Source: an uncultured bacterium (GTDB taxonomy: Bacteria > Bacillota_I > Bacilli_A > RFN20 > CAG-826). From it: a stretch of DNA of 64,000 bases. The number at the start of each line of letters is the position of its first letter. Position 1 is the stretch's first letter. A model generated the notes under the pieces. That model had not been told where the DNA came from. It saw only the letters and a list, made by a program, of their open reading frames with translations, and did no database searches. Made by a program: the position numbers and the translations under genes. Where the stretch lies: positions 1 through 64,000 of the forward strand of contig CASFKG010000002.1 in the NCBI GenBank assembly GCA_949295325.1. Direction: 5' to 3'. Of this stretch, positions 14,452 through 26,398 are shown in pieces.

Positions 14452-15366
14452 ATGCGTAAATCTACTATTACTGAAAATAGGCGCAAATGGTTGGTTGGCG
14501 GGATTATGGCCTTCGCAGGCGTCGGCCTACTCGCCACTGCTGCTGCTACTTGGATTCTTGGATCCAATTTGGGCCACGATGAAGGAATCGGAGTCACCGT
14601 CGACACTGTTCGTAACGAAAGTGCGAGGTTTGATTTGGTTTCTTTGTCTGACAAAGAGATTCATCTCGGAGAAAAGAGAGGCGAGGAAGCAGCTTCCAGC
14701 GGCGTTATTCATAATGACAACCTAGGAGGTGTAGAGGATCTTCAGATTACCTTTTCTTCTCTCAGTTTCAGTTTTGGCGAATCTTTTGTTAAGGAAGGCC
14801 AGCACTTGGAAATCCAATTCATGTTCGAATATGGGGAAAAACTTGAAGAGGGCGAAAACAGGACTTCCCTTAGTTCCACCGATAGGGCTTTGAACCAAGC
14901 CAATTTGGTTACTTCCAATCATATTGGCGCAAGCCGTAACGAGGCGCAGACGGTCGATACCGATAATGCCGGAGGAAACGATGCCTGGGAATATGTTTCG
15001 GCTCCGGCTGCCGTAAGTTTCGAAGATGTATCTTTCGACGATTTGGCCAGTAATAGTTCCGACTTGTCCGCAAGCACGGGGCAGACCTTCCAATTCAGTT
15101 CAGATTCCAATACCGGCATGATTTCCGGAAGCATAAAAACGAATTTGTCTATCAGCTTCTCTTGGGGAAGCTTCTTCGGTGGGAAGAGCCCTGTCGAGTA
15201 TTACAACAGCAAATTCTACAACTATGGCGATACCAACACTGAAGGAAAAACCGAAGTCAATGCTTCCATAGAAGCTGCCATGTATCAGGAACTCAACGAA
15301 ATGAACGCTGCATTCGCTGGCGGAGGGCTTGTCCTTACCATGCGGCTTGCTAGTGTTGCCAATTAA
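14452..15366 (+). CDS. TasA/camelysin-like secreted protein 1
   Basis: A 304-aa exported protein of the SipW-dependent type: a basic start (RKSTITENRRKW), a hydrophobic helix GGIMAFAGVGLLATAAATWI, then a mature region opening with GIGVTVDTV, as in TasA-like proteins where the sheet begins right after the processed helix. The rest is a beta-rich, Ser/Asn/Asp-rich sandwich without Cys, ending in FAGGGLVLTMRLASVAN. Such proteins form surface fibres in Bacillus biofilms; fibre formation here is inference. The frame is open from 14386, but the ATG at 14452 starts the signal. 15 nt separate it from a shorter paralogue. Confidence 0.65.
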   Translation: MRKSTITENRRKWLVGGIMAFAGVGLLATAAATWILGSNLGHDEGIGVTVDTVRNESARFDLVSLSDKEIHLGEKRGEEAASSGVIHNDNLGGVEDLQITFSSLSFSFGESFVKEGQHLEIQFMFEYGEKLEEGENRTSLSSTDRALNQANLVTSNHIGASRNEAQTVDTDNAGGNDAWEYVSAPAAVSFEDVSFDDLASNSSDLSASTGQTFQFSSDSNTGMISGSIKTNLSISFSWGSFFGGKSPVEYYNSKFYNYGDTNTEGKTEVNASIEAAMYQELNEMNAAFAGGGLVLTMRLASVAN

Positions 15367-15381
15367 ATTTGAGGGTGCTTT

Positions 15382-16185
15382 ATGAAAAAGATAAAAGATA
15401 CGAAGAAAACCTCGGCCGTAATAATGGGAGCCGGCATCGTCGCCCTTAGCGGCGTGGCCATGGCCGCCTGGATTATCACGGGCGTTAAAGGTCCCGTCAC
15501 TACAGCCAATATAACCGTCACCGTCGGCGATGTCGTGGACAAACGTCTAGGCATCGAGAATCCCGAGGTCGGTGATTCTTCTATCATGCTTGATGCCAAG
15601 TCGAGTGACTCTACTTTGCCGATCGTTCATACCGGCGGTGGCGGAGAAGATTTGTCGTTTACTATTTCTTATGACGTGACGGGTGCTCTCGATTCGAACG
15701 GAACCAACGGCCTCTCGGAATACTTCGGCGGCGTTAAGAGTTTCATTACGATTGTTACTGATGACGCCTCTGAGAGTTCCTCTTCTATTAATGCCGCTGG
15801 CGAAGCTTTGGAATCAGCAATAGCGGCTAGCCAAGTCGTTCTTCCCGTGACTACCAGTCCCGCAAGCGGTGGCGAAAATGTTTTCACGGCATCTAGTATT
15901 ACTGCGAGTGTCGCTACCACCAGTGCTGAATCCAATCCGACTCAGACAGTCGGCAACGTAACTAGCAAATTCTATGCAAATGGCACCAGTCTGCATGTCA
16001 TTTCCACATATTCGTTTGCTTGGGGTACTGCCTTTGACTGGGATAGTGATAACACTGGAGAAAATCCCGGTGAATATACCGGCACCGACAGCAGTTCCAT
16101 CGAATCGATTCTTTCGGCTCTTGAAAGCTTGAAGGCTGCATCCGGCGCTCATATCAACGTTACTTTGACACCTTTCACCAAGTAA
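15382..16185 (+). CDS. TasA/camelysin-like secreted protein 2
   Basis: A 267-aa exported protein paralogous in layout to its neighbour: basic start (KKIKDTKKTS), hydrophobic helix ending SGVAMAAWIITG, then NITVTVGDV at the start of a beta-rich mature part. It shares the pattern SKFYANG-S and the late motif TYSFAWGTAFDWDSDNTGENP with SFSWGSFFGGKSPVEYYNSKF in protein 1, so the two are diverged relatives with the same fold. GAGGGTG gives the ribosome site. Expected to be cut by the signal peptidase encoded next. Repeated Ser/Thr-rich stretches suggest an extracellular, possibly polymeric protein. Confidence 0.65.
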   Translation: MKKIKDTKKTSAVIMGAGIVALSGVAMAAWIITGVKGPVTTANITVTVGDVVDKRLGIENPEVGDSSIMLDAKSSDSTLPIVHTGGGGEDLSFTISYDVTGALDSNGTNGLSEYFGGVKSFITIVTDDASESSSSINAAGEALESAIAASQVVLPVTTSPASGGENVFTASSITASVATTSAESNPTQTVGNVTSKFYANGTSLHVISTYSFAWGTAFDWDSDNTGENPGEYTGTDSSSIESILSALESLKAASGAHINVTLTPFTK

Positions 16186-16202
16186 TCATTACAACGTTCC
16201 GA

Positions 16203-16223
16203 CAAGGGGGTCGAACCCCCTTG
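16203..16223 (+). promoter_or_regulatory. Hairpin between the secreted proteins and the peptidase gene
   Basis: CAAGGGGG and CCCCCTTG form a perfect eight-pair stem around a five-base loop, 18 nt after the second secreted-protein gene. There is no T run, so it is not a classic terminator. It may protect the upstream mRNA or partly reduce expression of the downstream machinery relative to its substrates. Confidence 0.6.
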
Positions 16224-16236
16224 CCGGTTTGTCCAT

Positions 16237-17238
16237 ATGAGCGATCTCGAAATACTCTCCCTGATAATCACGATCGTGTCGCTTGCCTGCTTCGCGGTCG
16301 TCTTCACCTTTTTGTTCCGAAGCTATTTCAGGCATGAAGAGGAAGAGGTCAAGCAGGGCTATTACGATATCGACCTCATAGTGGAAGACAGGCAGGTAAA
16401 GGAAAAGACGAAGGGCCAAAAGGCCCTCGATGTCGTTTATAAGGCCTTTCAATACGTATTCCTCGGCGTAATCGCCTTTGTGTTCGTTGCTTCCGTCTAC
16501 GAGAAGGCCAGCGGGGGACGGATTCTAATAGGGGATTCCACGGTCTACGTCATCGCTTCGGGTTCCATGTCCGAAAAAAATACCGCGAATACCTACCTTT
16601 ATGACGAGGCACTCAAGCAGGAGTACAATCTAGACAACCAATTCAACACCTACGACATCATAGGAATCACCAAGTACAAGAGCCAGGAAGACGTAAGGCT
16701 CTACGACGTGGTGGCCTATACCTCGAATTCGGGGACGACCATCGTCCATAGGATCGTCGAGATCGAAAACATCGACGGGGTCGATTACTACATCACACGT
16801 GGCGATAGTCAGCCTAGCAGCGACGACAATACCTTCTACGGCGATTATCTCCGGTATGACTCCATTGTCGGCTACTACAACGGCTTCCGCCTCCCGGCCG
16901 TGGGGGCCTTCGCGATATTCCTGCAGTCGGGTGCCGGTATCGTCGCCGTCGCAAGCATCGTCTACTGCTTCGCGATGTTCGAGTTCTTCCGCAGGAGGCT
17001 AGATAAGCAAATAGAAGCGCGGAAGGCAATGCTTCTAAGCAAGATCCCCTACGACGGAACCTCCGACGAACTAAAAAGCGTCCATATCGAACGAATCACC
17101 TATAACGGAGTGGAATATCCGCTGTATGTCGCCCACGACGACATCCGCGATTATATAGAAGACGATGATGAAAAAGACCGCAAAAATCCCATAAAGGAGA
17201 AGGAAAATGGAAAAGAAAACGAGGATAAGGGCAACTAG
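16237..17238 (+). CDS. SipW-type (ER-type) signal peptidase I
   Basis: A 333-aa membrane peptidase. Two N-terminal membrane helices (about residues 5-30 and 75-92), a catalytic domain with VIASGSMSEKN (nucleophile Ser) and GTTIVHRIVEI, where the ER-type/SipW branch has His in place of the usual Lys, then GDSQPSSDDN, and a C-terminal helix (AGIVAVASIVYCFAMFEFF) followed by an acidic tail of about 75 residues. SipW enzymes process TasA-like proteins, which are encoded directly upstream. No clear ribosome site. Its last 32 nt overlap the next gene. The long charged tail exceeds the usual SipW length. Confidence 0.88.
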   Translation: MSDLEILSLIITIVSLACFAVVFTFLFRSYFRHEEEEVKQGYYDIDLIVEDRQVKEKTKGQKALDVVYKAFQYVFLGVIAFVFVASVYEKASGGRILIGDSTVYVIASGSMSEKNTANTYLYDEALKQEYNLDNQFNTYDIIGITKYKSQEDVRLYDVVAYTSNSGTTIVHRIVEIENIDGVDYYITRGDSQPSSDDNTFYGDYLRYDSIVGYYNGFRLPAVGAFAIFLQSGAGIVAVASIVYCFAMFEFFRRRLDKQIEARKAMLLSKIPYDGTSDELKSVHIERITYNGVEYPLYVAHDDIRDYIEDDDEKDRKNPIKEKENGKENEDKGN

Positions 17239-19258
17239 GAAAACGGTAAAGAAAGCCGAAGAGGCGCCGACCCCGAAGACTTTGGAATCCACATTCGGGG
17301 AAGAGGCGAGGGAAGAGCCCAAGACGGCCGGAGAACCCGTCGCCGAAGTCTACAACGAAGCACCGGCCACTCCGATGCGGGAAGACAAGGCAGCCGGAGA
17401 GCCCATCGAGGAAGAAACCTCTAAGGAGGATGGGCCTACGGGCGGGAAACATAGGGAAAAGGAAAAAGAAAAGGTCCGCTTCTCCAGGGCTTCGCTCATA
17501 TTCGTTTCGCTCGCGTTCTTCTATGCGCTGTTTGCTTTGTTCGCGGCGATCTGTATCGATCCAAATTCGACGATGGTCCTTGCCGACAACCCCTTGGCTT
17601 CCATCCGCGATGCCTTCGGGCTGCCTATAGTGAACCCATCTCTTCCGACCTGGATCGCCTTCGTGATGCTGGACCTCTATCTATTCGTTTTCCTATTGGC
17701 CATCGCTTTCGAGGAAAGGCTTGCCAAGTACTACGGCGGCAAGGCCATATCCGGGAAGATGATCGCGATTTATGCGGTTACCTTCATCGCCTGCTTCGGC
17801 CTGGCTTTTGGGATCGGAGCCCTCTGCCATTACGATTTCACGCTAGCCAACTTCCAGAATAGTCTGCTATTCGCCGCCGAAGCCTTCTTGGTCGGATTGG
17901 TCGTCTACCTGATTGTCCTAGCCACCCTCTTCTTCCTAGTCGTCCTAATCGTCAACATCAAGAACTGGAGCAAACCCTATAGCAAGGGCATCCGCAGCGA
18001 GGCCGAGGAAGAAGAAGCCAAGAAGGAGGCACTAGACGCCGCGGCCATCGCCCACCAGGGCAATCTGGCCGGATCTTTCGGCACTTCCGGCGCCGCCGGT
18101 GGAGCCCCTGTCGCCAAAGATTCTTCATACGAAGAAGCACCTCTAGGCAGCAAGGAACGCGTATTCCCGGGTCTATCGAAAATCGATTTGGATCAGGACA
18201 TGCTGAGCGTTCCTACTTACCAAGACGATAAGTCCCTATCGGAAATCTGCGAAGGCTTCCGTAATTACTTGGCCGGGGAAGAACATCTTTATTACGATCC
18301 TTCCGCCATCCGTAGCTTCATCGCCGGTTTAAGCGCTTCGCGCCTGATCATACTCGAAGGGCTTTCCGGTACCGGTAAGTCTTCCCTTGCCCGCTATTTC
18401 GGCGAGTACATCGGATGTCCTTCCTTCTTCGCCCCGGTCCAGGCCACCTGGCGGGACCGTACTTCCTTGCTTGGTTTCTACAACGATTTCTCCCGTACAT
18501 ACAACGAGACGGAATTCCTGAAGAGGCTATATAGCGCCACCTATGCCCCCGAAGCCATCAACGTCATGGTCCTAGACGAAATGAATATCTCCCGTATCGA
18601 GTACTATTTCGCCGATTTCCTCTCCATCATGGAATATCCGATGGGGCAGTGGATACTGCCGATCATGCAGCTTCCCTACGATTTCGATGCCCCCGCGCAT
18701 CTCGAAGACGGGAAGATTCATATACCCGCGACCACCTGGTTCATCGGTACCGCCAACAAGGACGATTCCACCTACACCATTACCGACAAGGTCTACGACC
18801 GTGCCATCGTCTTATCGTTCGACGACCGCAACGAAGCCTTCGGCGTCGAAGGCGACTATCCGCCCATCTCCATTAGCTATGACGGCCTGATGAAACTCTT
18901 CACCGATGCCAGGAAGAACAAGGACTTCGCCCTTACCCGCAAGGACCTCGAACCCTTCTTGGCCCTTTCGCGTGAAGTCCAGGAAGCCTTCGACGTAACC
19001 TACGGCAACCGTATCTATAATCAAATTGCCAGCTTCGTACCCGTCTACTGCGCCTGCGGCGGCACCAAGGAAGAGGCCTTGGACTTCATGTTCGCCCGCA
19101 AAGTCCTGCGCAAGCTCGAAGGACGCTTCGAGGACTACGTCCGCGAAGCCTTGAAGGAACTCCTCAAGTCCATCGAAAAGTTCTACGGCAAGGACGGTTT
19201 CAAGGAAAGCAAGGCCCTCGTCCGCCACTATCTCAAGAGGTTCGGGGAGAACTACTGA
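17207..19258 (+). CDS. Membrane-anchored McrB-like AAA+ ATPase
   Basis: A 683-aa fusion. Residues 1-95 are charged and probably disordered; about 98-265 hold four membrane helices (ending LVVLIVNIKNW); a linker follows; the AAA+ module starts near 365 with Walker A GLSGTGKSS (about 385), a loop DRTSLLGFYN, Walker B NVMVLDEMNIS (about 453) and sensor TANKDDSTYT (about 514). The D-E-M-N and ATWRDRTSLLG signatures are those of McrB-type AAA+ proteins of restriction systems. McrB proteins are normally soluble and fused to DNA-recognition domains; here the N-terminal part is a membrane anchor, so an envelope role is more likely than DNA restriction. AAAGGAG precedes the ATG inside the upstream gene; the stop overlaps the next start. 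Confidence 0.85.
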   Translation: MEKKTRIRATRKTVKKAEEAPTPKTLESTFGEEAREEPKTAGEPVAEVYNEAPATPMREDKAAGEPIEEETSKEDGPTGGKHREKEKEKVRFSRASLIFVSLAFFYALFALFAAICIDPNSTMVLADNPLASIRDAFGLPIVNPSLPTWIAFVMLDLYLFVFLLAIAFEERLAKYYGGKAISGKMIAIYAVTFIACFGLAFGIGALCHYDFTLANFQNSLLFAAEAFLVGLVVYLIVLATLFFLVVLIVNIKNWSKPYSKGIRSEAEEEEAKKEALDAAAIAHQGNLAGSFGTSGAAGGAPVAKDSSYEEAPLGSKERVFPGLSKIDLDQDMLSVPTYQDDKSLSEICEGFRNYLAGEEHLYYDPSAIRSFIAGLSASRLIILEGLSGTGKSSLARYFGEYIGCPSFFAPVQATWRDRTSLLGFYNDFSRTYNETEFLKRLYSATYAPEAINVMVLDEMNISRIEYYFADFLSIMEYPMGQWILPIMQLPYDFDAPAHLEDGKIHIPATTWFIGTANKDDSTYTITDKVYDRAIVLSFDDRNEAFGVEGDYPPISISYDGLMKLFTDARKNKDFALTRKDLEPFLALSREVQEAFDVTYGNRIYNQIASFVPVYCACGGTKEEALDFMFARKVLRKLEGRFEDYVREALKELLKSIEKFYGKDGFKESKALVRHYLKRFGENY

Positions 19259-20574
19259 TGCAGGCCTCCTCCTCCTTCTATTCGCGTTTCGGGAAGGATT
19301 TCGCCTCGATAATCGGGGCCAACTCTCCTTACCGTGACGTAATCAACCGCCTGAAGAAGGGGGACTTTTCCCTATACGGGAACGACGGGGGGCTGAACGA
19401 AGCCCTGGACGACATATCGTCTCTGTTCGACTCGCTATTGTCCATTGCCTCCCGTCCCAGGACTGCTTTCAAAAACATAGACGTCCTTACCCGTAGCGAA
19501 CTCTCGCCCTCGTTAAAGAGCGATGATTTCCTGAAGACCGTGCAGGATCCCTCCTTGTGGAGGAGGAAGAAGGACGGGGAGTTCTATCCCGAGTACGTCC
19601 ACAGCACGGCTTACGAGGAAGACATATCGACCTACGAGAACAAGGCGGTAGTCTATATCTACCGCGAGGCAATGGACTTCCTTAGCGGACTCAGGAAAGC
19701 CGAGGAAACCGGAATCAGGAGCCTTGCGAGGCTCTACGGTACCCGCGGCCTATCCTTGAGCGAGGCCGGGATGCTAAGCGATATCCGCAAGGAAGAGGAT
19801 TCCCTTTCGCAGTATTTGTTCTCCCCCAGCTACAGGGAAGGCATAGGCGACAAGGCCGAAAGGCTGGAAAGGAAGGGAAGGAGGCTCTCTTCGACCCCCT
19901 TGCTCAAATATCTTGGCAAATCCGGCGTCTCCTTGCCGCTGCTGCCCACGAACATCTTCATACACGATCCCCGTTACCGGGTTGCCTACCGCTTCTACGA
20001 GAAAAGACTAAGGGATCAGGCTACCCCAACGGGTCTAAGCTATTACTTCCTGCTCCGTTTCCTCGAAGAGGGGAGAGGACTAGGCTATTCGTTTGCGAAA
20101 TCCCCGGTCTTCAGCAAGAGGGCCGGCCGTCTTTCGGTTACACCCTTTCGAATCGAAAAAACCCATTTCGCGATAGAAGGAAGACTGGAAGGCGAGACGA
20201 TAGTGCTGGACTTGGAATGCTACGAGAAGAAGGGCCATGCCTATATAAGGTGCTTAGAGGAACTCAGGGACGAAAACCGCGTCTACAAGGACGACGGGAA
20301 GGTCTACTATGCCTGCCTCCGCAATATCTCGAGTCTCAGTTACGATGCGGTGGAAGTGGAATCGAGTTACGAATCGCATCCTTTCAGGCCCTTGTACGAT
20401 GCCTTGTTTTCGCTGCTTCCGCACAAAGGCGAACTATCGCGTTGTCCCGCCTGCGGGTCCACGCGTCTAACCTATGCAAACGGGGAATGCGTATGCCCGC
20501 GCTGCGGTTCGAAGTTCGAGCCGGTCAATACCAGTGGCAACAAGCCGCGGCTATGGCTTAAGGAGCTCTTCTGA
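19258..20574 (+). CDS. DUF2357-like McrC-type partner with zinc ribbon
   Basis: A 438-aa soluble protein. Residues about 85-150 contain FYPEYVHSTAYEEDISTYENKA, the signature of the DUF2357 region found in partners of McrB-like ATPases (the S-TYEN core). The C-terminus has a zinc ribbon, CPACGS ... CPRCGS, near residues 395-420. McrC nucleases carry a PD-(D/E)XK site after this region; the equivalent strand here (ETIVLDLECYEKK) lacks the expected spacing and Lys, so I see no active nuclease. ATG overlaps the upstream TGA by one base, and the next gene starts the same way, so the ATPase and this protein are made together, probably as a complex. Confidence 0.7.
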   Translation: MQASSSFYSRFGKDFASIIGANSPYRDVINRLKKGDFSLYGNDGGLNEALDDISSLFDSLLSIASRPRTAFKNIDVLTRSELSPSLKSDDFLKTVQDPSLWRRKKDGEFYPEYVHSTAYEEDISTYENKAVVYIYREAMDFLSGLRKAEETGIRSLARLYGTRGLSLSEAGMLSDIRKEEDSLSQYLFSPSYREGIGDKAERLERKGRRLSSTPLLKYLGKSGVSLPLLPTNIFIHDPRYRVAYRFYEKRLRDQATPTGLSYYFLLRFLEEGRGLGYSFAKSPVFSKRAGRLSVTPFRIEKTHFAIEGRLEGETIVLDLECYEKKGHAYIRCLEELRDENRVYKDDGKVYYACLRNISSLSYDAVEVESSYESHPFRPLYDALFSLLPHKGELSRCPACGSTRLTYANGECVCPRCGSKFEPVNTSGNKPRLWLKELF

Positions 20575-21359
20575 TGGCAAAAAGGAATATTCAGGACAAA
20601 TTGCTCCAAGACGTAATTTCGGGGAGCCTTCCCGACAATGCCGTCGAGATTGAAAATCTCCACGTCAGCTACGACGAGCGCGAAGTGATAAAAGGCATTA
20701 CCCTAAGCGTGAAGCGCGGGGAGGTTTTCGGATTCCTCGGCAAAAACGGCGTCGGCAAATCGACCACCATCGATTGCCTGGTCGGTCTTAACAAATTCCA
20801 GCAGGGGAGCATCAAGATATACGGTCTCGACGTCCTTGAATATCCCCTCGAGGTCAAATCCCTCTATGGGTATCTTCCCAGCGAACCTTTGACTTATGAA
20901 CTCATGAGCGGCTACGAATTCCTGCAGTTCGTGGCTTCGAGCTACGACATGGACCAGGTGAGCTTCGACGCGAATATGGCCTTCCTTAAGGAAAAGTTCT
21001 CTCTTCCGGATAGCGATTTAGCCCGTCCGATTTCCGAATATAGCCACGGCATGAAGCAGAAGGTTTGCCTGATGGCCTCGCTTATCCATAACCCGAGTCT
21101 TTGGATCATGGACGAACCGACCGTCGGCCTCGACCCGATGATCTACGAAACCTTGGCGAAGATGATGCGCGAATACGCCGCCCACGGAAACGCCATCTTC
21201 CTCACCTCCCACAACATCGATTTGATCCAGGACGTCTGCGACAGGGTCGCCATCATAAACGGCGGCCAGGTCGCGACGCTAGTCGACTTCAAGCGCGAGC
21301 CCTTGAAGAGAAAGGACCTCAAGCGCATCTTCTTCAAGGCCTACGGAATCGACATATGA
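20574..21359 (+). CDS. ABC transporter ATP-binding subunit
   Basis: A 261-aa nucleotide-binding subunit of an ABC exporter. After a 27-residue N-terminal extension: Walker A GKNGVGKST, Q-loop region around YLPSEPLTYE, signature YSHGMKQK (S-H-G-M in place of LSGGQ, as in the CcmA/NatA-type exporters), Walker B LWIMDEPTVGLDP, and switch His in LTSHN. This is the type that pairs with a separate permease lacking a substrate-binding protein, which fits the gene that follows with a 4-nt ATGA overlap. Substrate unknown; context suggests a surface polymer or peptide. Confidence 0.92.
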   Translation: MAKRNIQDKLLQDVISGSLPDNAVEIENLHVSYDEREVIKGITLSVKRGEVFGFLGKNGVGKSTTIDCLVGLNKFQQGSIKIYGLDVLEYPLEVKSLYGYLPSEPLTYELMSGYEFLQFVASSYDMDQVSFDANMAFLKEKFSLPDSDLARPISEYSHGMKQKVCLMASLIHNPSLWIMDEPTVGLDPMIYETLAKMMREYAAHGNAIFLTSHNIDLIQDVCDRVAIINGGQVATLVDFKREPLKRKDLKRIFFKAYGIDI

Positions 21360-22963
21360 TCCTCTCGCTCGTCTACAAGGAATGGAAAAGCCGGGGGCAA
21401 TCGGGGACTTTGGCCTTGAAATTGCTCCGTGTTTTTGGTCATGTCCTGGCCTTCTGCGCGGTTTTCGCGACCATTGCCTTCCTTTACACGGGCGTGGACG
21501 AAAGGATCGAATCCCTTTCGAATTACCCGTCGAGCGACGTTCTTATTCTTTATCTGTTCATCGCCTTGGTGCTCTCAGCCCTTCTTACCCTGGGCAAGGC
21601 CCGTTCCTCTTTGTTCACGAAGGAAGATAGGCTCCTGCTTACCCCGTTACCGATAACCGACGACGATATAATCATTTCCAAATGCTTCTATCTCTACATG
21701 CGCCTTGTTATTGCGGGGTTAATGCTATTTACGCCCGCCTTAATCGGTTATGCGGTTAGGCGGCCCATGGGCGTCCATTTCTATATCTTCAGCGTCCTAT
21801 ATCCGTTCGTCGCGGCCATCCCAGCCTTGGCCATCGTCGGCATCCTGGTCTTTCCCTACAAGCTCTGCTACGATTTTCTCAAGGAACGCCCGTGGCTACA
21901 GATACTATTGGCCGCCTTATCCGTCGTCGCCCTTTGTTTCCTTTACCAGTACGTCCTCGATTTCTTCCTGGAGACGCTACTTGGTTCCAGGACCGACATC
22001 ACAATCGCCGAACCGGTTCTCGAAGCGCTTGATGCCGTCGTGCCTTTTCTAACGCCCGCGGCCAACTACTTTGCCCTGATGACCAACGACGGCGAGACGG
22101 TCTTCGACTTGCTAATGCTAATCGGCATCGTGATCGCGCTAGGGGGAATGGGGTATTTCGTCCTGAGTGCCCTTTACCGGAAGGCGGCGAGGTTCGGTTT
22201 CAAGAAAAAGGAAAAGGAGGCCAAACCGGTAAAACTCCTTTCGCCCACCAAGGCCCTGATAAGGAAAGAAGGTGTATTGCTCTTCCGCAACTCCAACTAT
22301 TTGTTCTCCTTTACTTCGCTACTCATCATGCAGCCCTTCCTCTGCTTCGTCGTCCTTTCTTCCCTTAGCGAGATCCTTTACACCCAGATGCTCGCCTACG
22401 TGACCTATTTCCCCGAACTTACCAACGGGGTAAGCCTCCTGATAATCCTCCTGTTCTCGAGTCTTATAGGCGGCGCCGGCAGCGATGGCTATACCCGCGA
22501 AGACAAGGGACGCGTCTGGCTGAGCCAGATTCCGGTCAGTCCCTTGAAGGAAGCATTGATCAAGGCGGCCCTGCCGTTTCTAGTAAGCGTCCTATCTCTT
22601 TTCGTCAGCGACTGCGTCCTCCTGGGTTTCGGCCTCGTCAACCTCTCCGTCTTCTTCTCCTCGCTGTTCATCGGAACCTTGCTTATCGCTTCCCTATCGG
22701 CCCTAGGCCTATATAACGACTCTAAGAAATTCTCCAAGAGCCGGAAAGCCGGGGGAATGGATATGTCCTTTCTTTTCTCGGTCGGACTGCCATTGCTTGT
22801 CGGAATCATGCACTTCGCGCTTGTCTTCCTTAGCGGCTTGCCTTCCCCCCTCATATACCTCGTCGAATGCCTCTTCGCCCTTGTGCTTTCCTTGCCGGCG
22901 ATACTGGGGTTCTTCCTCTATCACCGCAGGGCGGTGCCCGTCATGAAGGTGGATATACTATGA
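21356..22963 (+). CDS. ABC exporter permease, two-half type
   Basis: A 535-aa membrane protein with roughly 12 helices in two halves joined by a basic cytoplasmic segment (KKKEKEAKPVKLLSPTKALIRKEG, about residues 280-305). Such fused double permeases, starting with a short K-x-W motif on the inside (VYKEWKSRG), occur with NatA-type ATPases. LTPLPI and LSQIPVSPLKEALI are loop motifs common in these putative polypeptide or lipid-linked exporters. An upstream in-frame extension exists from 21101, but the ATG at 21356 overlapping the ATPase stop (ATGA) is clearly the start. The stop overlaps the next ATG in the same way. Confidence 0.85.
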   Translation: MILSLVYKEWKSRGQSGTLALKLLRVFGHVLAFCAVFATIAFLYTGVDERIESLSNYPSSDVLILYLFIALVLSALLTLGKARSSLFTKEDRLLLTPLPITDDDIIISKCFYLYMRLVIAGLMLFTPALIGYAVRRPMGVHFYIFSVLYPFVAAIPALAIVGILVFPYKLCYDFLKERPWLQILLAALSVVALCFLYQYVLDFFLETLLGSRTDITIAEPVLEALDAVVPFLTPAANYFALMTNDGETVFDLLMLIGIVIALGGMGYFVLSALYRKAARFGFKKKEKEAKPVKLLSPTKALIRKEGVLLFRNSNYLFSFTSLLIMQPFLCFVVLSSLSEILYTQMLAYVTYFPELTNGVSLLIILLFSSLIGGAGSDGYTREDKGRVWLSQIPVSPLKEALIKAALPFLVSVLSLFVSDCVLLGFGLVNLSVFFSSLFIGTLLIASLSALGLYNDSKKFSKSRKAGGMDMSFLFSVGLPLLVGIMHFALVFLSGLPSPLIYLVECLFALVLSLPAILGFFLYHRRAVPVMKVDIL

Positions 22964-25305
22964 AGAAGACCTTGGGCGTACTGCTTGTCATACCTTTCGC
23001 GGTCGCGGTTTTGGGCTTCGTCAACATCGCGGTAATGCATAACGCCATACAGGTCGATATTTCCGGCATCGCCTGGGACTATAGCGACGCGGAAGGCTTC
23101 AAGATCGATGACGGGGAGCTGCAGCTAGAGGCTACCCCGATATTCGACCCTTCCTATAGCCTCGCCGAAGGAAACGACCTCGTTTGGAGCTGCTCGAGCC
23201 TCGAAGAAGGCAAGAAACCCTTCGAAGTCGAAAATAGAGACGGTACCTTCTATCTGACCCCCTTGGAGGAAGGCCTATCCACGGTAACCTGCCAAAACGA
23301 AAAGGGGAACGTCAGGCGTTCCTTTAAGGCTTATGCCTACGAAGACGGGGCGGTCATCATAAACGACGTCGAATACCCTTCAAGCGGGGCGATGATCGGG
23401 AATCTGCGCAAATACGGTACCCTCGAATTCGATAGCGAAGGCAAGGCCGTTCCCGCGACGCTGAGCCTCGAAGCCACGGTTTACGGAGCCGCCGAGGAAG
23501 CCGTCCCCACCGCCTACAGCGATAACCTCTTCGTTTTGAACGACGGACAGATAAGGATCGCCGCCGGCGGGGAGTCCTACATTACCTATACCGTCTCTTC
23601 CCTTGGCGATTCGGTATCCTCAACCTACCGCTTCTACGCGGTCGAGGGAGCGGTAAACGTCGGTGACTACAACGATTTGCTGCTTTCCACCAATAAAAGC
23701 GAAACCGGCTTTCCGGTCTGCCTGCAACGAAACCTGCTCTCGCTGCGCGAAACCTATCCGACCGACGAAGAGGGAAATTATCTAGACGAGCCTCTATATC
23801 CCAATACCAAGCTGTTCGGGAACTACGATTTCACGAGCCGTTCCTTTTCCTTCGGTAGCGAGGTCTACCGCTTCGTCACGACCTATAACCACGAGTATCT
23901 GGACCAGCTTCAGGATGAGGACGAAAGCCTTGCCGATGTCGACGAGGTCGTCGCCGGCATCAGACTGAGGCAGTCCTTCTACGGGAACGGGTTCTCCATT
24001 AACATGCACGAACTCTGTTTCCCGACACACGGTTCCATAGGCGAGACAAGCGGCATCCTGACCCCCGGGGAAGGGGACCTCTTCGAGGGACCCCTCTACT
24101 TCGTGGCGGTCGGACCGACCGCGCTGCCGTTTGTCGCCGCCTACGGGCAGGACAACTGCGGCCTATATGTCGACGGCGACAACATCGTCATAGACGACCT
24201 CGATATCAGGAACACCTCCGACACCGACAACCTCTATGACCTTACCTATACCGGCTCGGTCATTGACGTCAGCGGCAAAAACGTCGTCATTCGCAATTGC
24301 CTCGTCCATAACGGCCGCGTGGCCGTAAGGGCCTTCAGCAGCGACAACCTCTCCATCGAAAACTGCTATCTCTATAGGGCGCGCGAGTTCCTGCTGAAGC
24401 TCGGCAACGACGAGTATGAAAAGCCCGATCCCGCCTCCAACGTTTCCTATAGCGGCGTCAGCGGCCCCTTGAGCTCCGTCCTCGGAGGGGAAGGCACGCC
24501 CGGCGACGAGCTATGGACCAACGCGGTCACAAACGGCGGCGCTTCGTATCTCGAAGGCCTGCGCGCCATCCAACGGGGCCTTGATAACCGCGATGTCGGC
24601 ACGCCCACCAATGTCAGGGTGGTCGACACGACCTTCTCGAACTCCGGCCTATTCTCGATCGCGATGGAAACCCTCTTCAACGGGGCCTACCTCTATAACG
24701 GCACCCCGAGCGGGCTCTTCTCCCTCGTGGGAAGCCTAGGGGAGGGACTGATTACCATTCCCGAAAACATCGGCGGTACTTCCAGGCCGGTGAATTTGGT
24801 CCTAGAAGGGGATACCCGCTTCTACGACTTCAAGGCGGTCGACAGCATCGATGCCTCCTGCCTCATCGAACAAAACCTCGGCCAGCTCGTCAATCCCGCC
24901 CCCGGAATCGACGACTACTTCCCGATGCGGCGACTGCTCGAAGCCGAATGCGATAGCCTCAGGTACAACTACTATCCCGACGGCCCGGGCGGCGAAGCCT
25001 ACATCAACCCCATAGTCGGTTATTACGGCGGGGGCTACAATGCTTCGTCGGTCGATTACGGCGGTCTCGACACGAACCCCTTTGGGGAGGAAATAGAGAT
25101 CGACTTCGCCGGCGCGGTATTCTCGACTTCGACCGGCAATAGGATAAGCGACCTGCTCGCCCACTGCGTGCCGCTTGCCGCCGGAATGAACGCCTTCCGC
25201 TTCCTGACCTCGGGAAGCTACGAGGGGAAACCCTACTTGTACGGTGAAAATCCCAACGTGGACGATATATATCAAAGGGGAGGAGATTATGATGAAATAC
25301 CCTAA
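22960..25305 (+). CDS. Exported parallel beta-helix protein
   Basis: A 781-aa extracellular or membrane-anchored protein. Residues 1-22 (MKKTLGVLLVIPFAVAVLGF) are a signal or anchor helix without a lipobox. Residues about 30-230 are Ig-like beta domains. Residues about 400-500 contain right-handed beta-helix turns, recognisable by repeated N-x-V-I-D/R-N-C strands: NIVIDDLDIRN, NVVIRNCLVHN, NLSIENCYLYR. Beta-helices of this kind bind or cleave long polysaccharides; no polysaccharide-lyase active site could be picked out. ATGA overlap with the permease gene and a 17-nt overlap with the following lipoprotein gene tie it to the export machinery. Confidence 0.75.
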   Translation: MKKTLGVLLVIPFAVAVLGFVNIAVMHNAIQVDISGIAWDYSDAEGFKIDDGELQLEATPIFDPSYSLAEGNDLVWSCSSLEEGKKPFEVENRDGTFYLTPLEEGLSTVTCQNEKGNVRRSFKAYAYEDGAVIINDVEYPSSGAMIGNLRKYGTLEFDSEGKAVPATLSLEATVYGAAEEAVPTAYSDNLFVLNDGQIRIAAGGESYITYTVSSLGDSVSSTYRFYAVEGAVNVGDYNDLLLSTNKSETGFPVCLQRNLLSLRETYPTDEEGNYLDEPLYPNTKLFGNYDFTSRSFSFGSEVYRFVTTYNHEYLDQLQDEDESLADVDEVVAGIRLRQSFYGNGFSINMHELCFPTHGSIGETSGILTPGEGDLFEGPLYFVAVGPTALPFVAAYGQDNCGLYVDGDNIVIDDLDIRNTSDTDNLYDLTYTGSVIDVSGKNVVIRNCLVHNGRVAVRAFSSDNLSIENCYLYRAREFLLKLGNDEYEKPDPASNVSYSGVSGPLSSVLGGEGTPGDELWTNAVTNGGASYLEGLRAIQRGLDNRDVGTPTNVRVVDTTFSNSGLFSIAMETLFNGAYLYNGTPSGLFSLVGSLGEGLITIPENIGGTSRPVNLVLEGDTRFYDFKAVDSIDASCLIEQNLGQLVNPAPGIDDYFPMRRLLEAECDSLRYNYYPDGPGGEAYINPIVGYYGGGYNASSVDYGGLDTNPFGEEIEIDFAGAVFSTSTGNRISDLLAHCVPLAAGMNAFRFLTSGSYEGKPYLYGENPNVDDIYQRGGDYDEIP

Positions 25306-26398
25306 GTTCCTGGTTGCCGGGTTGCTCGGCCTGGTGTCGCTATCATCCTGCGGCTTTTTTGCCACGGGCAACGAGTCCTATTACATCGAGGACGTCAGCA
25401 GCGTCAAAAACAGCGATGGTTCGACGACCCTGACCTTCACCTTCAGCGATCCCGAAACGCCGGACATGGTGATCGAGATTCCGGCCGGCGTCGACGGCAA
25501 CGGCATCGAAGACATTACCCACGTCCTCGACACCAATAGCGATCCGGACAGGGTGGTCATTACCATTTCCTACACCGATCCGAGCAAAGAGGACACGGTA
25601 ATAAGCGTGCCCGTGATCCAAGGCGAAGCCGGCAACGGCATCTACAACGTCACCTATACCCAAATCAGCGACCCCGACGACGAACATTATCTCGACATCG
25701 CGGTGACCATCGCCTTCACCGATCCCGAACGCCCGAGCGTTACCTTCTACATCCCCCACGGCAACGGCATCGCCTCCATAAGCGAGGACCCGGAGAGGTG
25801 GTCCGAGGAAACCGGTTACTACTACATCGTCACCTTCGAAGACGGCAGCGAGGTTTCTTTGCTCGCCCCGCAAGGGGAAACCGGTAATGGAATCAGCGAC
25901 ATCGCCTACGAAGACGGCAAGGACAACGACATCGTCATCACCATCTCGCTGACCGACGGCACCTCCTACGAAATCAGCGTCCCGAAGTCCAACAACTGGC
26001 ATGTCGGTAGTGGCAACCCCGCGCCCGACCTCGGTTACCCGGGGGATCTCTATCTCGACATGTCGACCGGTAACGTCCACCAGAAGAACGAATCTGGTTC
26101 CTGGGTCTATCAGGGCAACATCAACTTCGGAAAGACCACCTACTCGGTCGTCTTTATCGCCGATCCCGGCCACTTCCTCGTCAACGGCATCGAAGTCCAG
26201 ACCCTACTGGTAAGCGGGGTAGTGGAAGGAAGCTACCTGACGAGCGAACAGCTTCAGGTCCCGGTCTATGAGGGACATAGTTTCGAAGGCTATTGGACAT
26301 GCCCCGGCGAACCCGGCCCCTTCGACGCCAAACTCGACCTGCTTACCCCCATCGAGGGGAATATGACTTTCTATGCCCATTGGAGCGCGCTAAATTAA
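25289..26398 (+). CDS. Repeat lipoprotein with C-terminal InlB-type domain
   Basis: A 369-aa lipoprotein with signal ending LSSC. Four beta-rich repeats of about 45-50 residues each end in a G-x-x-GNGI turn: GVDGNGIEDI, GEAGNGIYNV, HGNGIASI and GETGNGISDI. The next section has the collagen-tail-like W-x-GSGNPAPDLGYPGDLYLDM segment seen at ends of phage-tail and surface fibres. The last 70 residues match the Listeria-Bacteroides (InlB B) repeat, with SFEGYW and NMTFYAHW. Start: tandem ATG codons at 25289 and 25292 behind GGGGAGGAG; either may serve. It is the last gene of the overlapping set and probably an adhesin or cell-surface component. Confidence 0.8.
   Translation: MMKYPKFLVAGLLGLVSLSSCGFFATGNESYYIEDVSSVKNSDGSTTLTFTFSDPETPDMVIEIPAGVDGNGIEDITHVLDTNSDPDRVVITISYTDPSKEDTVISVPVIQGEAGNGIYNVTYTQISDPDDEHYLDIAVTIAFTDPERPSVTFYIPHGNGIASISEDPERWSEETGYYYIVTFEDGSEVSLLAPQGETGNGISDIAYEDGKDNDIVITISLTDGTSYEISVPKSNNWHVGSGNPAPDLGYPGDLYLDMSTGNVHQKNESGSWVYQGNINFGKTTYSVVFIADPGHFLVNGIEVQTLLVSGVVEGSYLTSEQLQVPVYEGHSFEGYWTCPGEPGPFDAKLDLLTPIEGNMTFYAHWSALN

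Follow-up and report, generated by a model that had tools for sequence, protein, structure and literature searches.

The locus described here raises the question of what a McrB-like AAA+ protein and a McrC-like partner could be doing between the gene of a signal peptidase and genes for an ABC transporter and surface proteins. It lies in a window of 64,000 nucleotides, the whole stretch of DNA that was analysed, on contig CASFKG010000002.1 (assembly GCA_949295325.1) of an uncultured bacterium of the GTDB lineage Bacillota_I, Bacilli_A, RFN20, CAG-826. A sequence-only reading of this DNA had described eight genes on one strand as a candidate undescribed envelope system. ORF calls on the window place nine consecutive open reading frames that fill positions 14452 to 26398 (Table 1), so that the single strand stands and the count does not. 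From the peptidase gene onward each junction overlaps, and the overlaps of 32, 1, 1, 4, 4 and 17 nt that had been read from the DNA were reproduced from the ORF coordinates. The 32-nt overlap is credible because the start of the McrB-like gene at 17207 is preceded by a strong Shine-Dalgarno sequence, AAAGGAG. Promoter-like and terminator-like sites in the region were no more frequent than in shuffled sequences.

Table 1. Open reading frames of the cassette, with coordinates in the window
Predicted product	Position	Strand	Features
Secreted TasA-like (SipW-type signal) protein 1, putative fibre subunit	14452..15366	+	N-terminal TM segment followed by A-T-W motif
Secreted TasA-like protein 2	15382..16185	+	Family of protein 1
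SipW/archaeal-ER-type signal peptidase	16237..17238	+	TIGR02228; Ser in SGSM, His in VHRIVE
Four-TM McrB-like NxD AAA+ GTPase/ATPase (P0004)	17207..19258	+	Walker A GLSGTGKS, Walker B VLDEMN, GTANKDDS
McrC-like activator (P0005)	19258..20574	+	DUF2357 helical part, PD-(D/E)xK-like fold, C-terminal four-Cys zinc ribbon
NatA/DrrA/GldA-type ABC ATPase	20574..21359	+	PF00005, TIGR01188
Large ABC-2-like permease, ~535 aa	21356..22963	+	Many TM segments (hydropathy)
N-terminally membrane-anchored extracellular beta-helix protein	22960..25305	+	Beta_helix match just under cut-off
Surface lipoprotein	25289..26398	+	Lipobox LSSC; weak C-terminal Listeria-Bacteroides repeat, TIGR02543

Conservation and inheritance of the cassette

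The arrangement is not peculiar to this contig. The order TasA-like, SipW, McrB, McrC, ABC ATPase, permease, beta-helix protein and lipoprotein is the same, on the same strand, in 30 sampled genomes that span four families of one order, in one of which (G026) the contig ends after the permease gene. The distance between the McrB and beta-helix genes stays within 3.6–4.4 kb in 33 loci, and the gene arrangement is far beyond chance. All 34 loci of this type, which we call variant I, retain the full set except at contig ends. In this order, 44 of 150 good genomes have the beta-helix gene and 103 have some relative of McrB/McrC. The four-TM McrB lacks a nearby beta-helix gene in four genomes of the order, and in each of these the two genes lie on separate contigs, so that contig breaks are the likely cause of the missing neighbour. 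On the question of whether the AAA+/DUF2357 pair occurs mostly apart from the ABC and SipW genes, the answer is therefore divided: across the wider family the system cannot be defined by the pair alone, while within the order the four-TM subfamily has the complete set wherever no contig end interrupts it. An apparent open frame of 24,683 aa in another genome (G112) was rejected, since it is a run of N.

Gene trees from 27 genomes were compared with one another and with the RpoB tree. Those of SipW, McrB, McrC, the ABC ATPase, the permease and the beta-helix protein are concordant (pairwise r 0.81–0.90, with 0–2 strongly supported conflicts). Against RpoB, r falls to 0.51–0.65 for these six genes and to 0.38 for the lipoprotein, whose tree also agrees less well with the other operon trees, and the operon trees contradict 9–11 of the 21 well-supported RpoB splits. 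Because the operon trees agree among themselves but conflict with RpoB, the cassette spreads horizontally as a unit, across species and families of these uncultured, gut-type Bacilli. Such exchange suits a surface system or a defence system alike, and does not by itself choose between them. The claim that the genes make up one system is borne out by their conserved order and co-inheritance; the system is real, conserved and mobile.

Properties of the encoded proteins

P0004 shares Walker A, Walker B and a GTANxDDS sensor with its relatives, in which the AAA+ motifs are invariant and N-x-D is kept in nearly all McrB proteins checked. By hydropathy, 21 of 25 variant I McrB proteins have four TM segments (range 3–5), and a group of one-TM relatives has one in every member. 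As had been proposed, the AAA+ protein is membrane-anchored, with four TM segments in nearly all relatives, and is paired with a McrC/DUF2357 protein. P0004 and P0005 both score poorly in Pfam, which gave no FtsB/DivIC match for P0004 and no DNA-binding domain on its N-terminal part, the region taken up by the four TM segments. A profile of the McrB family searched against the PDB gave a colinear match to E. coli McrB (6hz4), which is weak (E 0.026) and outranked by unrelated membrane proteins. In the AAA+ tree the four-TM group, which includes variants I and I', locus L060 and clostridial sequences, is sister to the one-TM and tandem groups with moderate support (0.81, 0.66).

The AlphaFold2 model of P0005 has a pLDDT of 83, and its best four structure matches are all McrC chains from E. 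coli and Thermococcus (Z 8.5–10.5; the next match has 6.9), with an alignment that extends into the nuclease-like domain. Judged by this model, the "DUF2357" protein is an McrC. The earlier label holds for the family, 7 of 20 McrC relatives matching PF09823 (best 1.1e-8), but not for P0005 itself, which has no match. In 30 orthologues, W101, Y126-E127-N128 and T231-N232 of the DUF2357 part are invariant, as are the four cysteines of the zinc ribbon, at which P0005 stops without a C-terminal extension; zinc-ribbon matches were also returned by a PDB search with the family profile. Within residues 250–390 the same orthologues show no column at all conserved at 85% or more, the best acidic column reaching 67%; catalytic residues are thus not conserved, and the DNA-cutting part is apparently dead. 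P0005 may be an McrC that would still activate its GTPase yet would no longer cut.

The identification of a SipW-type peptidase stands, with a TIGR02228 match over the cut-off (3e-15) and the Ser and His residues in place. The SipW model of NCBIfam, NF046067, matches below its cut-off (4e-14; 52.5 bits against 190), and by sequence the enzyme is of the SipW class and not an equivalog of Bacillus SipW. The 1.1-Mb genome has no second gene of SipW type. The putative substrates of the peptidase are encoded by 1 to about 6 gene copies per locus and form a family with few conserved columns, in which the aromatic residue after the N-terminal TM segment is W in 101 of 150 members and Y or F in 32. 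This TM segment and aromatic residue have the look of SipW-dependent signals. The first 50 residues align with the "AW"-type proteins of the one-TM SipW operons described below (hhalign 89%, E 2e-6), and no match to the pilin-like and surface families of those operons was found beyond them.

The name "TasA-like", in contrast, found no backing in family or structure searches. Neither the single proteins nor all 23 members taken together gave a TasA match in Pfam or NCBIfam, and PF12389 (Peptidase_M73) and TIGR04088, both of which detect B. subtilis, had zero matches genome-wide; a relative with the one-TM arrangement (G219) has sub-threshold matches at its operon. The AlphaFold2 model of protein 1 is mostly beta (pLDDT 71), with a best structure match of Z 4.7 and no TasA chain among its Foldseek/VIA matches. 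Homology to TasA itself is not proven, and SipW-linked secreted proteins would be a better name.

The ABC ATPase can be assigned to the NatA type, as had been suggested, from PF00005 (5e-23) and from matches to drrA (TIGR01188, 1e-48) and GldA (7e-44), both under cut-off. The permease orthologues are 26–40% identical and gave no match in Pfam, NCBIfam or the PDB. The beta-helix protein falls just under the Pfam Beta_helix cut-off (3.5e-5), its profile recovers endopolygalacturonase alone from the PDB (0.016), and its TM segment and ectodomain are conserved among orthologues of 33–47% identity. The roles of these two proteins rest on gene context. The protein described earlier as InlB-type turned out to be a lipoprotein, with a lipobox-like motif in all 29 orthologues and a Listeria-Bacteroides repeat that is sub-threshold (TIGR02543, 0.0036).

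Variant loci and known systems

Variant I' (L072–L076, and L142 from another order) carries the same set in a different order, plus inserted proteins of ~200–240 and ~770–980 aa. Variant II comprises the one-TM loci, which encode pilin-like proteins, SipW, McrB, McrC with a charged C-terminal extension, small "AW"-signal proteins and a giant surface protein; a second SipW is frequent, and the permease and beta-helix protein are absent. These loci look like pilus operons. SipW lies beside McrB/McrC in all 34 variant I, all 7 variant I' and all 22 variant II loci; the tandem, giant-linked and Clostridia loci all lack it. The ABC-permease-beta-helix genes occur with a surface protein of 830–1005 aa and without McrB/McrC in L077–L079, and Clostridia have the four-TM McrB/McrC pair alone, so that neither half strictly needs the other.

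Other arrangements were seen among the relatives. McrB-McrC-McrB tandems without SipW (L081–L087, L159, L160) lie next to giant surface proteins of the transglutaminase, InlB-repeat and LRR kinds, and beside one of these tandems a glycosyl hydrolase family 3 C-terminal/Fn3-like protein is fused to a McrB-like domain without recognisable Walker A (L086:3555-7364). In a genome labelled Acholeplasmatales, a McrB/McrC pair (L060:8168-16128) has on either side proteins whose N-terminus is that of a type IV pilin. Four loci (L088:106-4451, L089–L091) encode a ~900-aa NxD McrB with 11–12 predicted TM segments paired with a McrC-like protein, and in L088 this gene is directly upstream of a variant I cassette. 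Judged by eye, several relatives (L034–L036, e.g. L035:13733-14467) have a cyclase-like gene of 244 aa upstream of the cassette and divergent from it, and in L032 and L033 (L033:16913-17488) a small sigma-factor-like gene sits immediately 5' of the TasA-like genes. At L044:13704-19080 and related one-TM loci, two EAL-domain genes and a nucleoside phosphorylase-family gene follow.

The only relevant publication found in a search for a CoCoPALM follow-up, or for McrB with TasA or SipW, was that of Bell et al. 2024 (PMC11090510). Its text assigns the NxD signature to a branch of CoCoNuTs, which are predicted defence systems, and CoCoPALMs, and describes the NxD GTPases as uncharacterised. One paragraph deals with CoCoPALM, an NxD GTPase fused to an FtsB-like TM/coiled-coil domain, with neighbours of the signal peptidase family that are likely to take part in pilus assembly; as a rule McrB and McrC each carry a fused coiled coil. 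The paper characterises none of its members and leaves them to a later publication. The cassette shares with this description a McrB-type GTPase that carries the NxD motif and membrane segments, a McrC partner, a neighbouring signal peptidase and a proposed connection to pili. It differs from the paper's main text in that its McrB has four TM segments in place of an FtsB-like TM plus coiled coil, its McrC has no C-terminal extension, and an ABC/permease/beta-helix/lipoprotein module and TasA-like substrates are added. The one-TM loci fit CoCoPALM better, and the four-TM cassette is a sister branch with a module absent from the CoCoPALM text, though the supplements of the paper may list some variant I loci. 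The claim that the combination was undescribed therefore has to be narrowed: the link between McrB/McrC and a signal peptidase was named in 2024, and it is the four-TM branch with its added module that goes beyond the CoCoPALM text.

Other known systems share parts of the cassette. The McrBC type IV restriction system of E. coli has an AAA+ ring protein and the McrC activator whose structure the P0005 model matches; the cassette, however, has NxD and not NxxD, a membrane anchor in place of a methylcytosine-binding domain, and a McrC with an added zinc ribbon and without conserved nuclease residues. As in tapA-sipW-tasA of B. subtilis and sipW-tasA/calY of B. cereus, a dedicated SipW-type peptidase adjoins secreted subunits, although those of the cassette fail the TasA family models. 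Passages of two papers on TasA/CalY fibres (PMC9674648, PMC13082335) describe SipW with its substrates and make no mention of an AAA+ protein or ABC exporter at these loci. The ABC ATPase belongs to the sequence class of the GldA/GldFG-type and DrrA-type systems, but its permease, one protein of 535 aa, belongs to no known family, and its partner is a beta-helix ectodomain.

A possible role for the cassette

The best explanation, which we think has an even chance of being correct, is that a nuclease-dead, membrane-anchored McrBC motor serves the assembly of a SipW-processed surface fibre. We favour it because SipW adjoins McrB/McrC at every locus of the three variants and the genome's only SipW sits in the cassette; because the one-TM loci resemble pilus operons and pairs of the wider family adjoin surface proteins, namely the type IV pilin fusions of L060 and the transglutaminase, InlB and LRR giants; because the McrC fold is kept and its nuclease residues are not conserved; and because order and strand are identical in 30 genomes, the spacing from McrB to the beta-helix gene is constant and the trees are concordant. 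Against it stand the lack of a TasA/camelysin family or fold match for the window's own substrates and the occurrence of the ABC-permease-beta-helix genes and of the four-TM McrB/McrC pair without each other. In the proposed machine, Sec would insert the two TasA-like subunits, which the SipW-type peptidase would cleave. On the cytoplasmic side of the membrane the four-TM McrB would form a hexameric ring powered by nucleotides and stimulated by a McrC that has lost its nuclease activity and kept its zinc ribbon, and this ring could drive or proofread the delivery or assembly of subunits. The ABC ATPase, permease and anchored beta-helix protein may make up a linked export device or mechanical arm, and the product would be anchored by the lipoprotein. 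Gene order, joint inheritance, intact NTPase motifs, the lack of conserved nuclease residues, the predicted TM counts and the lipobox are observations; that there is a fibre and a ring, which way the force acts and how the parts share the work, we infer. More tentative, and somewhat less than evenly likely, is the fuller version in which McrBC has turned into a motor of this kind and, with the ABC transporter and beta-helix arm, builds a hitherto unknown Gram-positive surface filament, the cassette being swapped between families as a unit.

It is also conceivable, if unlikely, that McrB/McrC is a membrane signalling switch that senses the state of the fibre or envelope and controls secretion, and is not an assembly motor. 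The invariant zinc ribbon of McrC would suit such a switch, as would the EAL-domain genes flanking several one-TM loci and the sigma-factor-like or cyclase-like genes (by eye) that precede some variant I loci. Such regulatory genes are not found at every locus, however, and AAA+ motifs kept intact throughout the relatives would fit a motor no less well. A role in antiphage defence, in which a membrane-anchored, CoCoNuT-like McrBC sensor would harm the infected cell upon activation and the surface proteins would detect or block phage, seems improbable to us. The McrBC ancestry, the CoCoNuTs within the NxD branch, the horizontal spread of the cassette and the match of P0004 to the PADLOC candidate defence family PDC-M26A (8e-40) all point in this direction. 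Yet the McrC nuclease fold lacks conserved catalytic residues, the cassette contains no other recognisable nuclease or toxin, five of its nine products are secreted, lipidated, surface-exposed or substrate-processing, and the sister operons resemble pilus operons. Two or three independent modules (SipW with its substrates, McrB/McrC, and ABC-permease-beta-helix) that share an operon for convenience and do no joint work, as their separate occurrence in L077–L079 (no McrB/McrC), in one-TM loci (no permease or beta-helix protein) and in Clostridia (McrB/McrC only) might suggest, have a similarly small likelihood, given that the variant I loci retain the full set except at contig ends, that variant I' keeps it in a different order, even in L142, and that the phylogenies match despite repeated horizontal transfer.

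While NxD McrB proteins have so far been treated as a restriction or defence branch, the loci compared here tie a large part of this branch in Bacilli to surface proteins and signal peptidases, without exception in the 63 loci of variants I, I' and II. The open question of what NxD GTPases do becomes testable with named genes. An assembly of surface fibre by a McrBC motor would suggest an energy-driven route for the assembly of SipW-dependent fibres, and the cassette as a whole suggests that bacteria have put a defence machine to a second use, in building something at the cell surface.
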